DNA of 64,000 bases from Actinomyces ruminicola (GTDB lineage: Bacteria; Actinomycetota; Actinomycetes; Actinomycetales; Actinomycetaceae), in contig NZ_FNIM01000012.1 of the NCBI RefSeq assembly GCF_900103885.1, forward strand, positions 1 to 64,000, read 5' to 3'. The position numbers and the translations under genes were made by a program. Shown here in pieces: positions 20,340-27,031 of the stretch. The first letter of the stretch is position 1; every line of letters starts with the position of its first letter. Under the pieces are notes generated by a model, which was not told the DNA's origin, ran no database searches, and worked only from the letters and a program-made list of their open reading frames with translations.

Positions 20340-21169
20340 GAGACGGGGATCCTGGCGACGTCGTCGGCGTCCAGGGAGTACAGGGCGTCGAGCACGGCGA
20401 CCTGAAAGGAGCCGGGGCCCGAGGCGGTCTCGGCCGCTAGCTCCGCGGCGGCGCTGTAGACGGCGTGGCAGGCCACGGTTGCGGTGAAGGCGTCGGCACC
20501 CACGGAGCGCCCGGCGGCAACGAAACCGGCCACCAGGGCGCCCAGGGCGCACCCGCCCCCGGTGACGCGGGTCAGCAGCGGCGAGCCGCCGCCCACGCGG
20601 GCCAGGCACTCGCCGTCCACAATGGCATCCGCGGGCCCGGAGACGGCGACGACCGCACCGGTGCGGGTTGACAGTGCGCGGGCGGCGTCGAGCGCGGCGT
20701 CCACGGCGTCGGCGGTCTCCACGCCTCGGCCGCCCGCACCGGAACCGGCCAGGGCGATGATCTCCGAGGCGTTGCCGCGGATGACGGTGGGGCGCTCCTC
20801 CGCCAGCCGCTGGGCGAGCTCGGTGCGGTGCACCAGGGTGCCGACTGCGACGGGGTCCAGCACCCAGGGCACGCCCGCCGCCCGTGCTGCGGAGCAGGCC
20901 TCCGCGGCGGCCGCGCGCTGCTCGGGCTGGGGCGTGCCCAGGTTGATCAGCAGCGCCGAGGCGACGGCGGCGAAGGGCCCGGCCTCCCCGGTGATGTCAA
21001 CCATGGCGGGGACGGCGCCCGCGGCCAGCAGGACATTGGCGGTGAAGTTCGTGACCACCGAGTTGGTTATGCAGGCCACCAATGGGCCGGTGGAGCGCAG
21101 GGCCTCCAGCAAGGCCGCGGATCCGGTCGAGGCGGAAGGTACAGCAGTCTGGTGCGTGCACCGCATCAT
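20336..21169 (-). CDS. thiM: Hydroxyethylthiazole kinase
   Basis: ThiM phosphorylates the thiazole alcohol for salvage. The protein (277 residues from ATG 21169) shows [44 protein letters not shown] and the C-terminal catalytic loop [15 protein letters not shown], where Cys in GGGC matches ThiM. ATG 21169 was chosen because AAGGGA lies seven bases upstream and coincides with the 3' end of the TPP riboswitch. Starts further upstream (21190) would fall inside the aptamer. With no thiC or thiG nearby, the operon appears devoted to salvage. Confidence 0.95.
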
Positions 21170-21170
21170 G

Positions 21171-21242
21171 CGACATCCCTTCGTCAGCATTATCTGGACA
21201 GGTTCTACGGGTCTGTTCTCAGCCTTGCGGCACCCCGTGTCG
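21171..21242 (-). promoter_or_regulatory. TPP riboswitch (THI element) of the thiMED operon
   Basis: On the minus strand the conserved aptamer blocks appear in order: ACGGGGTGC, GGCTGAGA, ACCCGTAGAACCTG, then TAATGCTGACGAAGGGA. P1 can be drawn from CGACA (complement of 21238-21242) and TGTCG (21171-21175). The 3' strand of P1 ends one base before the thiM ATG, and the conserved GAAGGGA is also the Shine-Dalgarno. TPP binding should therefore block translation directly, without a separate expression platform. Confidence 0.93.
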
Positions 21243-21265
21243 TGGGCTCAACGGTAGCAAACAGC

Positions 21266-21347: not shown

Positions 21348-23021
21348 TCAGTCGTCCAGGTAGTCGCGCAGCACCTGGGAGCGGCTGGGGTGGCGCAGCT
21401 TGCTCATGGTCTTGGACTCTATCTGCCTTATCCGTTCACGGGTCACCCCGTAGACCTTGCCGATCTCGTCCAGGGTCTTGGGCTGGCCGTCGGTCAGGCC
21501 GAAGCGCATGGAGACCACGCCCGCCTCCCGCTCGGACAGGGTGTCCAGGACGGCGTGCAGCTGCTCCTGCAGCAGCGTGAAGCTGACGGCATCCGCAGGA
21601 ACGACGGCCTCGGAGTCCTCGATCAGGTCCCCGAACTCGCTGTCGCCGTCCTCCCCGAGCGGGGTGTGCAGGGAGATGGGCTCGCGCCCGTACTTCTGCA
21701 CCTCGACGACCTTCTCGGGCGTCATGTCCAGCTCGACGGCGAGCTCCTCCGGGGTGGGCTCGCGCCCCAGGTCCTGCAGCATCTGCCGCTGGACGCGGGC
21801 GAGCTTGTTGATGACCTCGACCATGTGGACGGGGATGCGAATGGTGCGCGCCTGGTCCGCCATGGCGCGGGTGATGGCCTGGCGGATCCACCAGGTGGCA
21901 TAGGTGGAGAACTTGTACCCCTTGGTGTAGTCGAACTTCTCCACGGCGCGGATCAGGCCGAGGTTGCCCTCCTGAATGAGGTCCAGGAAGAGCATGCCGC
22001 GACCGGTGTAGCGCTTGGCCAGCGAGACGACCAGGCGCAGGTTGGCCTCCAGCAGGTGGTTCTTGGCGCGCTGGCCGTCCTGAGCCACCCAGTGCAGCTC
22101 GCGGCGGTACTTCGCATCAAGGTCGTTGCCCTCGGTGGCCAGCAGGTGCTCGGCGTACAGGCCCGCCTCGATGCGCTTGGCGAGCTCGACCTCCTGGGCG
22201 GCGTTGAGGAGCGCTACCTTGCCGATCTGCTTGAGGTAGTCCTTGACCGGGTCCGCGGTGGCGCCCGCGGTGACGACCTTCTGCGCGGGCTCGTCGCCCT
22301 CGTCGGAGTCGGAGACGGTGAAGGAGCCGTCCTTGTTCTTCTCCCCGCCCTTGGACTTCTTGGACTTCTTGCCCGCGGCCTTCTCCGCCTCCTCGCGGCG
22401 AAGGCGGTCCAGCTCGCCGGTGAGGGCGGCGATGGAGGGGTTCATCTTGATGCCCTTGATGACCCAGCCGCGGAAGATGTAGCCGTTGTGGGTGAGGAAC
22501 TCACGGGCGACGACGGGCTCCTCCTCGCCGGGGATGATGAAGCGCGGCACCGGGCCGTGCCCGTAGGGGGCCAGGGTGATCGGGTCCTCCAGGGTGCCGT
22601 CGCCGGAGATCTCCAGGCCCTCGACGACGGTACGGCTGCGCACGAACAGGGTGGCGCCGGGGGCGAGCCGCACGTCCTTCAGAGCCGCGGGGGTGTTGAA
22701 GGGGTGACGCTTGGTGCCGTCGCCGTTCTCCTCGAGCGAGACGTCCAGGTAGTAGTCGCGCAGCTCGGGGGCGGGGGCGTCGGCGGCGTCATCCTCCTCG
22801 TCCTCGTCGTTGTCCTCGGTCTCCGCCTCATCCGCGTCGCCGTCGAAGTCGTCCTCGTCCTCGTCCTCATCCTCGGCGTCGAAGTCGTCCTCGGCGTCGA
22901 GGTCGTCTTCCTCGTCCAGGTCGACCTCCTCCTTGTCCTCAAGGACCTCGTCGACGTCGTCGGCGAGTTCGACACGCTCCCGCGTGGTTCTGGGAGTAGG
23001 AGCAACTGTGGAAGTAGCCAC
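21348..23021 (-). CDS. rpoD: Primary sigma factor RpoD/SigA with unusual N-terminal insert
   Basis: The 557-residue housekeeping sigma factor has a complete C-terminal core: region 1.2 ([18 protein letters not shown], about 257-274), region 2 ([27 protein letters not shown] and [17 protein letters not shown]), region 3 and region 4 with [20 protein letters not shown]. The N-terminal third is odd. Residues 20-80 are almost all Asp/Glu. Residues about 89-190 then resemble the opening of right-handed beta-helix enzymes: [56 protein letters not shown] and [12 protein letters not shown] Lys-rich linker follows. Classical primary sigma factors have no such module. Start GTG 23021 has AAAGGA at good spacing. 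Confidence 0.95.
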
Positions 23022-23316
23022 GGATTTCCTTTCACGGGGCGGACGGTTAAGCCGGAGGGGCGCACAAAGCCGTGGAGAAGTCTACGCGAGGATCTCAAGC
23101 GGTCCCGCAGGCGTGCTCGCAGCACGCCAAGAGACTTCGAGCAAGACCTCGGCTACCACCACCAGCGCGAAGATCAACGATGATGACAGCCCGTCTATTC
23201 CCACGGCACGCATCCAGCTCATTGCCGCGGGGCGGCACCGTTGGGGTCGGGGCGTGCCCGGCCACGGGGACAGCGCCGAGACGGAACGCCCGCCACCCCC
23301 GCCTGCCCCCTTCGCC

Positions 23317-23714: not shown

Positions 23715-24914
23715 ATGACCGAGGTTGACGTACTGCTGCCACTCGTGCGCGGGGCCGTCGATGCCCGCCTGGAGCACGTACTGGCGCGGCTGCGCGCCCA
23801 GTGGCCTGCCCCGTCCACTGCGGCGGACGAGCTGTTCGACGCCGCCGCCACCGCCCTCACCGGAGGCAAGCGCATGCGGGCGGTGCTGGGCGCCGTGGGA
23901 CTGGCCCTGCTGAATGAGGACCATGCGGGCAGCGTGGACCAGGTCAGCCGCGAGCGCCACGACAGCAGCGGGACCGCCGACCGCGTCGCGGTGCTGGCCG
24001 GCCCGACGGCGGCCCGGCTGGGCGCTGCGCTGGAGCTGTACCAGGCGAGCGCGTTAGTGCACGACGACGTCATCGACGCCGCCGACACCCGCCGGGGCCA
24101 GCCCTCCGCACATCGCCGGTACGCGTCCCGCCACCGTCAGGCCGGCTGGCGCGGTTCAGCGGATGGCTACGGGGTGAGCGCCGCGATCCTCCTGGGCGAC
24201 CTGCTCATGGCGGCGTCCGCGACGGAGATGGGCGCCGCGGCCGCTACCGCTGAGCGCGGCGCCGCACGAGCCGCCCGGGACGCCTTCGACGCCATGACCA
24301 CGGAGGTCGCCGTCGGCCAGTTCCTCGATGTGCACCACGAAGTGCTGCCCCTGCCGGACCCGACGGATCATCCGGTGGCGGCGGGCACCGCCATGCGCGA
24401 GGCCGCACTGGAAGTGGTACGCCACAAATCGGCGCGGTACTCGGTGATGTACCCGCTGGTGGTCGGGGCGCTGCTGGCCGGGGTGGATCCGCGCAGCGAA
24501 CTACTGGAGGCGCTAAAGGTCTTCGGCGAGGAGATCGGGATCGCCTTCCAGCTGCGCGACGATGTCCTGGGAGTATTCGGAGACCCCGCCCTGACCGGTA
24601 AGCCGGCCGGCGACGATCTGCGCGAGGGCAAGCGCACGGTGCTGCTGGCCCTGACCTGGCAGCGATGCAATGACGCCGGTCGCGCGCTCCTGACCCGAGT
24701 GCTGACGCAGGGCGCCGCGGCCTCCGCTGCGGATGTGGCGGCCACCGCCGACATCATTCGCGACTGCGGCGCCCTGGCCGCCCACGAGGAGGAGATCGCC
24801 GCCCACACGGCTACCGGCCTCGGCGCCCTGGACGCTGTCCCCTCCGCACTGAGCGACGCCCCGCGAGAAACACTCACCGCCCTCGCCCACCTGCTGACGG
24901 CCCGCCGGAGCTGA
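23715..24914 (+). CDS. idsA: Polyprenyl (geranylgeranyl-type) diphosphate synthase
   Basis: This 399-residue all-helical prenyltransferase extends allylic diphosphates with isopentenyl diphosphate. The first aspartate-rich motif is DDVID (117-121) in LVHDDVIDAADTRRG. The second is DDVLG in AFQLRDDVLGVFGD. GGKRMRAVL and KPAGDDLREGKRT are also family marks. A loop between residues about 70-95 is longer than usual. The chain length of the product is not predictable here. It precedes the kinase gene by 62 bp in the same order as in mycobacteria (idsA2 near pknL and aroG), which suggests an old conserved neighbourhood. Confidence 0.92.
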   Translation: MTEVDVLLPLVRGAVDARLEHVLARLRAQWPAPSTAADELFDAAATALTGGKRMRAVLGAVGLALLNEDHAGSVDQVSRERHDSSGTADRVAVLAGPTAARLGAALELYQASALVHDDVIDAADTRRGQPSAHRRYASRHRQAGWRGSADGYGVSAAILLGDLLMAASATEMGAAAATAERGAARAARDAFDAMTTEVAVGQFLDVHHEVLPLPDPTDHPVAAGTAMREAALEVVRHKSARYSVMYPLVVGALLAGVDPRSELLEALKVFGEEIGIAFQLRDDVLGVFGDPALTGKPAGDDLREGKRTVLLALTWQRCNDAGRALLTRVLTQGAAASAADVAATADIIRDCGALAAHEEEIAAHTATGLGALDAVPSALSDAPRETLTALAHLLTARRS

Positions 24915-24963
24915 TTGTGGGCGCCACCGGGCGGCGTAATGCGCCGGGAGGTCGACGGCCCCG

Positions 24964-24969
24964 TACACT
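24964..24969 (+). promoter_or_regulatory. Leaderless -10 box of the PASTA kinase gene
   Basis: TACACT ends seven bases before GTG 24977. There is no ribosome binding site. Confidence 0.55.
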
Positions 24970-24976
24970 CGGCCCC

Positions 24977-27031
24977 GTGACCAAGGATCCTCTCATCGGC
25001 CGACTGGTCGACTCTCGTTACGAGATCGTCGACCGGGTGGCCCGCGGGGGCATGGCCACCGTCTACCGGGCACAGGACCGTCGCCTGGATCGCCTGGTGG
25101 CGCTGAAGCTCATGCACCCGCACCTGGCGGACTCCCCCGACTTCGTGGCCCGGTTCCGGCGGGAGGCCAGGGCGGCGGCGCGGCTGTCCAACCCGGGAGT
25201 GGTGGCGGTCTACGACCAGGGCAGCCTGGATGGGGTCGCCTACCTGGTTATGGAACTCGTGGAGGGCCCCAACCTGCGCGATCTCATCGCGGCGGGCCCG
25301 CTGACCGTGCGCGAGGCGCTCGGACTGACGGCACAGGTGCTCGGGCCCCTGGGCGCCGCCCACCGCGCCGGCCTGGTCCACCGTGACATCAAGCCGGAGA
25401 ACGTGCTACTGCCCGCCGACGGCTCGGTGGCCAAGGTCGCCGACTTCGGTCTCGCCCGCGCCGTCACCGAGGTCACCCAGACGACCACCGGGAATGTGCT
25501 GGGTACCGTCGCCTACCTGGCGCCGGAGCTGATCACCACCGGCTCCTCCGCCCCTTGTGCGGACGTCTTCTCCGTCGGCGTGATCCTGTACGAGCTGCTC
25601 ACCGGCAGCCAGCCCTTCGCGGCGGACACCCCGATCCAGATCGCCTTCCGCAACGTGCACGAGGACGTGCCCGCGCCGTCGCTGCAGCTGCCCGACCTGT
25701 CCGAGCGCGTGGACGCCCTGGTGGCGGCGATGACGCGCCGCTCCCCCCAGGACCGCCTGGCCGACGCCGATGCGGCACTGACGCGGCTGCGGGAGGTCGT
25801 CTCCGCCCTGAGCGACGCCGAACTGGCCGTCAAGCGCGGGGGCGCCACCGGTTCGGTGCGCACCCAGGAGGTGCTGGCGGCGAATGCCGAGGCCGCCCGC
25901 ACCGCCATGCTGGCAACGGACGGGGCTGAGAACGAGCCCGACGACGTCGACGCCCCCGCGGATGCGGCCACACCGGGGGCCGGCCTGCGCACGGTGTCCC
26001 TGCCCATCGGCTCCATCGCCCCGGACGAGGCCGCGGGCAGCCGGGACGGCACGACCCGCTCCCTGGACCGACGTCAGGCGGCCCGCGCGGCGGGCGCGCA
26101 GGAGGAGACCGCGAAGGTGGCGCGCCATTCCAGACGGCGCCCGCGGCGGCGCACGGTAGTCGCCGCCGCCCTGCTGCTGGCGGCCGCGGCCGGTGGCGGC
26201 GCCTGGTACTTCACCACTGGCCCGGGGCGCACGGTCCCGGTGCCGCAGATCGCCGGGATGACAGCGGCCGACGCACAGGCGGAGGTAGAGGCGGCCGGGC
26301 TGGTGTGGGGCGCCCCCACCCGCGCCTACTCCGACACGGTGCCGGCCGACTCGGTGATCTCCTCCTCGCCCGATGCCGCCACCCGCCTGCATCCGGGCGA
26401 TGCGGTGACGCCGGTCATCTCCCGCGGCATTGAGCAGAAGACCGTGCCCGACGTCGTCGGCTCCAGCCAGGACGACGCCACCACGGCCATCACGGACGCG
26501 GGCCTGTCGCTCGGTGCGGTCACCAAGACCTACTCCGACTCGGTGGCCTCCGGCATGGTCATCTCCTCTGAGCCGGTTGCGGGCACCACCGTCAATCACT
26601 CCTCGGCCGTTGCGATCGTGGTGTCCCTGGGACGCCAGCCCGCAGTCGTCCCGGACGTGACCGGCATGAGCGTGGAGGACGCCACCACCACGCTGGAGGC
26701 GGCCGGTCTCACGCTCGGCGCGCAGTCGGAGGCCTTCTCCGACGACGTCGCCTCCGGGCTGGTCATCTCCTCCAGCCCCGCCTCCGGCGCCGAGGGCTAC
26801 TACCACGGCGACTCTGTGGACGTGACCGTGTCCAAGGGCCCGGAAATGGTCACTGTGCCGAACGTCGCCGGCATGAGTGAGCAGGAGGCCACCACCGCGC
26901 TGAAGGATGCCGGGCTGGAGGTGGAGGTGTCCCGGGTTCTAGGTGGCCTGTTCGGCACCGCCCACTCCACCGACCCGGCCGCCGGGACCAGCGTGCGCAA
27001 GGGCTCGAAGGTCACCCTGAACGTGGTCTAG
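24977..27031 (+). CDS. pknL: PASTA-domain Ser/Thr protein kinase, PknL type
   Basis: From GTG 24977 the protein has 684 residues. The N-terminal Hanks-type kinase shows the glycine loop RGGMATVY, Lys44 in VALKLM, HRDIKPEN with catalytic Asp137 and DFGLA (156-160). A long Ala/Asp/Arg-rich juxtamembrane linker leads to a single transmembrane helix (RRTVVAAALLLAAAAGGGAW). Four PASTA repeats follow outside, each with a VP.v.GM...A...L..AGL pattern. PASTA domains usually bind peptidoglycan or muropeptides, so the kinase may couple wall status to cytoplasmic targets. The neighbourhood (idsA, class II DAHP synthase) matches mycobacterial pknL, though the mycobacterial protein lacks PASTA repeats. 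Confidence 0.93.
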   Translation: MTKDPLIGRLVDSRYEIVDRVARGGMATVYRAQDRRLDRLVALKLMHPHLADSPDFVARFRREARAAARLSNPGVVAVYDQGSLDGVAYLVMELVEGPNLRDLIAAGPLTVREALGLTAQVLGPLGAAHRAGLVHRDIKPENVLLPADGSVAKVADFGLARAVTEVTQTTTGNVLGTVAYLAPELITTGSSAPCADVFSVGVILYELLTGSQPFAADTPIQIAFRNVHEDVPAPSLQLPDLSERVDALVAAMTRRSPQDRLADADAALTRLREVVSALSDAELAVKRGGATGSVRTQEVLAANAEAARTAMLATDGAENEPDDVDAPADAATPGAGLRTVSLPIGSIAPDEAAGSRDGTTRSLDRRQAARAAGAQEETAKVARHSRRRPRRRTVVAAALLLAAAAGGGAWYFTTGPGRTVPVPQIAGMTAADAQAEVEAAGLVWGAPTRAYSDTVPADSVISSSPDAATRLHPGDAVTPVISRGIEQKTVPDVVGSSQDDATTAITDAGLSLGAVTKTYSDSVASGMVISSEPVAGTTVNHSSAVAIVVSLGRQPAVVPDVTGMSVEDATTTLEAAGLTLGAQSEAFSDDVASGLVISSSPASGAEGYYHGDSVDVTVSKGPEMVTVPNVAGMSEQEATTALKDAGLEVEVSRVLGGLFGTAHSTDPAAGTSVRKGSKVTLNVV

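Follow-up and report, generated by a model that had tools for sequence, protein, structure and literature searches.

Primary sigma factors are generally regarded as conserved proteins, and in actinobacteria little is settled about what their variable N-terminus does; region 1.1 is typical of the N-terminus of primary sigma-70 factors, though not universal. The question of what may stand in this place instead is raised by the primary sigma factor of Actinomyces ruminicola, a 557 amino acid (aa) open reading frame (ORF) with a GTG start on the minus strand of contig NZ_FNIM01000012.1, at positions 21348-23021 of the 64,000 nucleotide stretch analysed here (the window). A first-pass annotation had read residues 89 to about 190 as resembling the opening of a pectate-lyase-like beta-helix, possibly captured in this lineage, and had offered replacement of region 1.1, binding of a carbohydrate or polymer, or docking of a partner as its possible roles. 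The best explanation as a whole, with a probability of roughly 0.55, is that the module entered the sigma gene before Actinomyces radiated and serves as a captured docking or positioning element, whether for the holoenzyme itself or for some regulator.

The sigma core is complete, as had been annotated. Regions 1.2, 2, 3 and 4 are all present and in order (Pfam), and the ORF scores 789.8 bits against the NCBIfam sigma equivalog PRK05901.1-3 (cut-off 582). The residues quoted for the unusual segment were found at the positions given, and 46 of the first 87 residues are Asp or Glu, which bears out the acidic tract described ahead of it. The Lys-rich linker said to follow the segment is also present (residues 217-235), but a conserved, helix-like stretch (193-216) intervenes.

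Residues 89-190 and the start of beta-helix enzymes

Sequence comparison indicates that residues 89-190 very probably share ancestry with the opening part of right-handed beta-helix proteins, represented by the GH136 lacto-N-biosidases. When a 129-residue piece (89-217) was used as a single query against 177,635 PDB sequences, 7v6m (E 5.7e-4) and 6kqs (E 8.5e-3) were matched. A profile of ten Actinomyces sigma rows matched 7v6m at 4.8e-5, 6kqs at 1.4e-4 and the PL6 lyase 7dmk at 1.4e-3, and a profile combining four sigma and six fucosidase modules (described below) matched 7v6m at 3.4e-15 and 6kqs at 7.8e-13, together with further lacto-N-biosidases and alginate lyases. The 6kqs match spans profile positions 3-99 of 103, i.e. 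almost the entire module. Profile-profile comparison of the sigma module with eight beta-helix starts gave a probability of 98.4 over 75 columns, and a profile of the eight starts scored the window module at 48.6 bits versus at most 5.3 bits across 2000 shuffles. The latter is a measure of specificity, and neither result is an independent discovery, because seven of the eight rows came from the sigma-profile search. Chance resemblance to beta-helix starts was ruled out by the shuffles.

Structural matches to beta-helix starts were likewise obtained, but they are weak: one of ten models of the module exceeded a predicted local distance difference test (pLDDT) value of 50, and the top Foldseek rows were all beta-helix proteins with weak scores. 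The VIA listing for the module held no row outside the lacto-N-biosidases, a result that excludes nothing. Pfam names no family within the module itself, and a long solenoid of repeated turns was not found in the 557-aa ORF (no PF13229 or PF05048 in Pfam). Homology to the beta-helix ends at about residue 190, and the helix, linker and sigma core come next.

The nearest relatives found are modules of GH29 fucosidases

The sigma profile, when searched against 49 Actinomyces genomes, also matched another protein in one of them (G176), in which the module stands alone. This stand-alone module, used as a single query, found matches in 71 of 213 family genomes (49 Actinomyces and 22 of other genera), and reached the sigma gene locus in 49/49 Actinomyces genomes at E 5.5e-10 to 6.4e-5. 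Seventeen non-sigma loci were read, 10 with a stand-alone module and 7 leading into beta-helix-type proteins. All ten hosts of the stand-alone module (L229-L235, L238, L240 and L241) are GH29 alpha-L-fucosidases with PF01120 over the Pfam cut-off, and the module follows the GH29 and F5/8 domains, the latter being over the cut-off in nine and only below it in L240. CWB2 cell-wall-binding repeats also occur in L233, L234 and L235, and L260, in its full frame, has at its end what by eye resembles a sorting signal. The closest fucosidase module (L233) shares 38% identity with the window module over 102 residues. No Pfam family was reported over the GH29-linked module, which may thus be an unnamed domain family; L273, a second non-sigma match in genome G195, has no Pfam family.

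A tree of 46 module rows combined 14 sigma modules, out of 37, with 10 GH29-linked modules and 22 beta-helix-type rows (21 distinct, as L244 repeats L063). PF13229 or PF05048 exceeds the cut-off in 13 of the 21 distinct beta-helix rows; four others reach E 1e-3 or better without passing it, L062 has 0.002, and three have none (L061, L223, L224). The sigma modules form a single group (support 100/100), and the sigma and GH29-linked modules together split off from the 22 beta-helix-type rows (100/99). Within the GH29-linked set the sigma group stands on a long branch (1.61), and this nesting is modestly supported (88/71). Though grouped with GH29-linked modules, it is attached to a sigma factor and not to a GH29 enzyme. 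A whole beta-helix protein as the nearest relative was dropped after the tree pointed to the GH29-linked modules. The pectate-lyase-like reading is therefore kept for the homology to beta-helix starts, but the nearest relatives found are stand-alone GH29 modules and not whole lyases. The likely route leads from a beta-helix start to a stand-alone module of surface fucosidases, and from there to the sigma factor. That the final transfer ran this way is suggested by the nesting in the tree and the genus-only distribution. An unnamed module of surface fucosidases would in this way be linked to the transcription machinery.

The location of the relatives in fucosidases and lacto-N-biosidases could mean that binding of a carbohydrate or polymer has been retained, with transcription answering glycogen, a wall precursor or a sugar in the cytoplasm. 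However, the module corresponds to the N-terminal piece alone: it aligns to 247-347 of the 6kqs chain, far from D568/D575, given as the catalytic residues of this GH136 enzyme in PMC7335108, assuming that the chain is numbered as in that paper. The carbohydrate binding proposed in the first-pass annotation thus found no support, and because the catalytic residues of the relatives are absent, continued sugar binding is quite improbable.

The module is found throughout Actinomyces

The module is present in 49/49 Actinomyces genomes. It is in frame with the sigma core in 37 and with region 1.2 in the other 12, among which the frame ends inside the core in one draft genome (G704) and the contig ends in another. 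The G704 frame (L268) stops after 373 codons, and either a sequencing error or a real change may be responsible. In a whole-protein search of 200 family genomes, 37/37 Actinomyces match from residue 33 or earlier, whereas all listed matches from the remaining genera start at residue 203 or later, i.e. after the module. A domain captured in one lineage, as had been suggested, is what this distribution describes. The module of Actinomyces ruminis CtC72 is 98% identical to that of the window, and a scan of named genomes, with patterns that reach close relatives only, found 28 loci, all in Actinomyces.

Wider searches gave no further clear case. An order-level profile search outside the genus gave 8 matches, of which 7 are beta-helix-type and not sigma factors and one (L065) is likely a chance frame. 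At class level there were 13 matches other than the genus's own; 9 are not sigma factors, 3 (in G499, G546 and G582) lie away from that genome's sigma gene, and the last is in G767. A viral carrier was also considered, and no relative was seen in a viral-contig scan, whose two patterns reach close relatives only. An error in the gene model or assembly as the origin of the module was ruled out by the 49/49 genomes, selection and constant length.

Among the matches listed by the same whole-protein search, the window's genome contributed a single one, so that another sigma factor of this class was not detected there. An entire genus therefore carries a foreign, conserved module in what is, in the window's genome, the sole sigma factor of its class among those matches.

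Region 1.1 and other contents of the same place

PF03979 (region 1.1) was not found in the 557-aa ORF. Three HrdB-like N-termini score at or below the Pfam cut-off for region 1.1, and a profile built from 13 HrdB-like region 1.1 sequences is therefore the better test. It matched 0/37 Actinomyces and 0/32 other Actinomycetaceae N-termini, versus 39 of 67 elsewhere (the 13 seeds included). Residues 89-190 did not prove to be a standard part of region 1.1 in most actinobacterial sigma factors, and the proposal that the module replaces region 1.1 does not hold in a direct sense, because the sister genera also lack a match; going by these profiles, region 1.1 was probably lost before the module arrived. 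Many sister genera carry, by eye, a Lys/Ala-rich part and an acidic part ahead of the pre-1.2 motif, and in Actinomyces the module is placed between the acidic tract and this motif.

Three different contents were found in the same place: the fucosidase-type beta module of Actinomyces, an immunoglobulin (Ig)-like repeat in the KH17 lineage, and Rho_N or SAP domains in a third genus. The sigma factor with the N-terminal Ig-like repeat is from G012 and is identical to a protein recorded under the name RpoD in 'Ruaniaceae bacterium KH17'. The repeat, which has no Pfam family itself and is named from the Ig families of its relatives, is also common to sigma factors P0139 and P0144, and a VanY-type carboxypeptidase of G012 (PF02557, 1.9e-43) contains three such repeats, 46-52% identical. 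The Ig-like sigma observation concerns L051 (468-1871, +), P0126, P0139, P0144 and L097 (370-2007, -), with 52% identity over 83 aa to a VanY-type repeat from the same genome. In the third genus (g26), Rho_N or SAP exceeds the Pfam cut-off in 7 of 8 sigma N-termini (L132, L138, L197 and L199-L202, but not L198), with Rho_N at 4.5e-18 in L138 and 2.6e-18 in L197, and SAP at 1.1e-10 in L132.

Two further kinds of N-terminus were recorded. Those of genus g32 (L146, L215) share a short motif, W-EYRV then TKKELI-F, that is unassigned to any family, and a primary sigma frame in G011 (L203) has a Lys/Ala/Thr-rich and acidic tail of about 560 residues ahead of region 1.2.

A tentative generalisation, given slightly less than even odds, is that the primary sigma N-terminus of Actinomycetaceae, once vacated by region 1.1, has repeatedly taken in small folded modules of unrelated, often cell-surface, proteins, each of which would give its lineage a private handle on the housekeeping holoenzyme. 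The other domains that sister lineages carry in this place are natural domain swaps for probing the role of the N-terminus on the polymerase.

Selection and conserved residues

Ratios of nonsynonymous to synonymous substitution rates (dN/dS) were obtained for 37 species (666 pairs) by the Nei-Gojobori method, using a script, and are given as medians over pairs with dS 0.05-2 (615 to 654 of 666 by region). The ratio is 0.226 for the module and 0.140 for the helix, compared with 0.595 for the acidic tail and 0.889 for the linker. Within the remainder it is 0.073 for the pre-1.2 motif, 0.083 for regions 1.2 to 2, 0.030 for regions 3 to 4 and 0.233 for the non-conserved stretch 291-318. At the level of coding sequence, the module is under purifying selection and is flanked by what appear to be faster-evolving tethers. 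Its length is 101-102 residues across the 37 aligned species, while that of the tail varies from 60 to 122.

Comparison of the 53 invariant residues (within 89-192) with the ten GH29-linked modules showed that 25 recur in half or more of the latter, whereas the other 28 do not. The sigma-invariant residues R128, H155, R160, F161, R173, F183 and K189 are found in 0/10 GH29-linked modules and K192 in 1/10, and the helix-like stretch has no counterpart in the fucosidase modules seen. Such sigma-specific conservation suggests that a new interaction surface has arisen. Between residues 89 and 216, eleven positions are always Lys or Arg and eight are always acidic in the 37 species. The fixed basic residues might belong to a nucleic-acid-binding arm whose contacts are with promoter DNA or, as long as no DNA is bound, with the acidic tail, and the nucleic-acid-binding-type domains Rho_N and SAP stand in the same region of a sister genus. 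This possibility is considered unlikely, as the relatives of the module belong to extracellular sugar enzymes, eight positions are fixed as acidic, and no DNA-binding family matched the module (Pfam).

Proposed role of the module

Region 1.1 occupies the polymerase cleft and departs on DNA entry, and the acidic tail may play this part in Actinomyces. Two flexible tethers, the acidic tail and the Lys-rich linker, would hold the module beside the DNA cleft of the polymerase, where the folded module could either position the acidic tail or receive a partner. The residues invariant only in sigma factors would form a docking or positioning surface together with helix 193-216, and the module would no longer meet sugars. 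Docking or positioning, taken on its own as the function, is given even odds or marginally better.

Some observations favour other readings. The sigma N-terminus of the family tolerates widely differing contents, and the dN/dS of the module (0.226) is close to that of the non-conserved stretch of the core; the module might thus be a passenger, acquired accidentally and retained either as a spacer or because it is well folded and harmless. Retention in 49/49 genomes, the near-constant length in the 37 aligned species and the many sigma-invariant residues that are dispensable in fucosidase modules make a passenger improbable, at odds about equal to those of the DNA arm, with sugar binding the least likely of these readings. 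The lack of a Pfam name in the module and the poor structure models would also fit a resemblance due to chance, or a segment that is simply region 1.1 or a disordered tail, but the PDB E-values, the shuffle control, the tree, selection and the absence of a region 1.1 profile match in all 37 Actinomyces leave this with hardly any probability.

A role as a stand-in for RbpA or CarD was rejected. PF13397 (RbpA) was found in 71/71 family genomes and PF02559 (CarD-type) in 70 of 71. PF02559 matches the repair factor Mfd as well, but the window's genome has a short frame of its own for this family, 189 aa long. Since RbpA and CarD-type proteins are present, the module is not their replacement.

Gene model and surroundings

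Features of the gene are listed in Table 1. AAGGA or AGGTG precedes the corresponding GTG in 37/37 Actinomyces sigma genes read, a count that is not independent because the starts were picked by the presence of these motifs. By eye, the pre-1.2 motif recurs in related form in the primary sigma factors read from other actinobacteria. In the one fair structure model, the helix comprises model residues 116-134, corresponding to sigma residues 197-215.

Table 1. Features of the Actinomyces ruminicola primary sigma factor gene (window coordinates).
Feature	Position	Strand	Basis
Primary sigma factor (SigA/HrdB/RpoD type), 557 aa	21348..23021	-	Pfam regions 1.2-4; NCBIfam PRK05901.1-3
Sigma core: region 1.2 (257-290), region 2 (323-393), region 3 (402-478), region 4 (491-544)	21390..22253	-	Pfam
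Conserved pre-1.2 motif, residues 236-256	22254..22316	-	By eye; dN/dS 0.073
Lys-rich linker, residues 217-235	22317..22373	-	dN/dS 0.889; mean identity 0.64
Conserved probable helix, residues 193-216	22374..22445	-	dN/dS 0.140; constant length; helix in one fair model
Putatively captured beta module, residues 89-190	22452..22757	-	PDB beta-helix matches; GH29 fucosidase relatives; dN/dS; length 101-102
Acidic N-terminal tail, residues 1-84, fast evolving, variable length (60-122 residues)	22770..23021	-	D/E count; dN/dS
Shine-Dalgarno-like AAAGGA, 5 bases 5' of GTG	23027..23032	-	Sequence

A thiamine pyrophosphate (TPP) riboswitch (Rfam RF00059, 61 bits) is located just downstream of the sigma gene at 21159-21247 (-), and stands ahead of a run of thiamine genes read by eye. 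Divergent from sigA, at 23715-27031 (+), a polyprenyl synthase ORF is followed by a Ser/Thr kinase with PASTA-like repeats (both by eye). The kinase is of interest because the N-terminus of mycobacterial SigA is phosphorylated, which is described as regulatory in the available part of PMC10011835.

Comparison with known systems

The A. ruminicola protein is like group 1 sigma-70 factors (SigA/HrdB) in its complete region 1.2-4 core, pre-1.2 motif and acidic N-terminal tract, but differs in that no region 1.1 was found and in the additional module 89-190 and helix 193-216. The module is similar in length and conserved residues to the GH29 accessory modules of Actinomycetaceae (the best of them being 38% identical over 102 aa); however, these are located in secreted enzymes behind the catalytic and F5/8 domains and are without the basic and aromatic residues confined to sigma factors. 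With GH136 enzymes (7v6m, 6kqs) and PL6 alginate lyases it appears to share the N-terminal cap and first turns, whereas the remaining solenoid and the catalytic residues are absent from the sigma module.

Mycobacterial SigA also has a long N-terminal extension, in which residues 132-179, with acidic residues, are needed for function according to passages of PMC10011835. That extension differs in being described there as disordered, and the same passages mention no folded module. No description of a beta-helix-like domain in a primary sigma factor, nor of an Actinomyces sigma factor, was found in the titles and abstract openings of the papers listed in searches of the open-licence literature, in keeping with the first-pass statement that no such primary sigma factor had been described. 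Sigma-70 factors with extra domains are nevertheless an already known kind: as summarised in the abstract of PMC11119718, those of cyanobacteria have acquired 29 accessory domains in 59 patterns, a likeness to the Actinomyces protein that holds at the level of sigma-70 factors.
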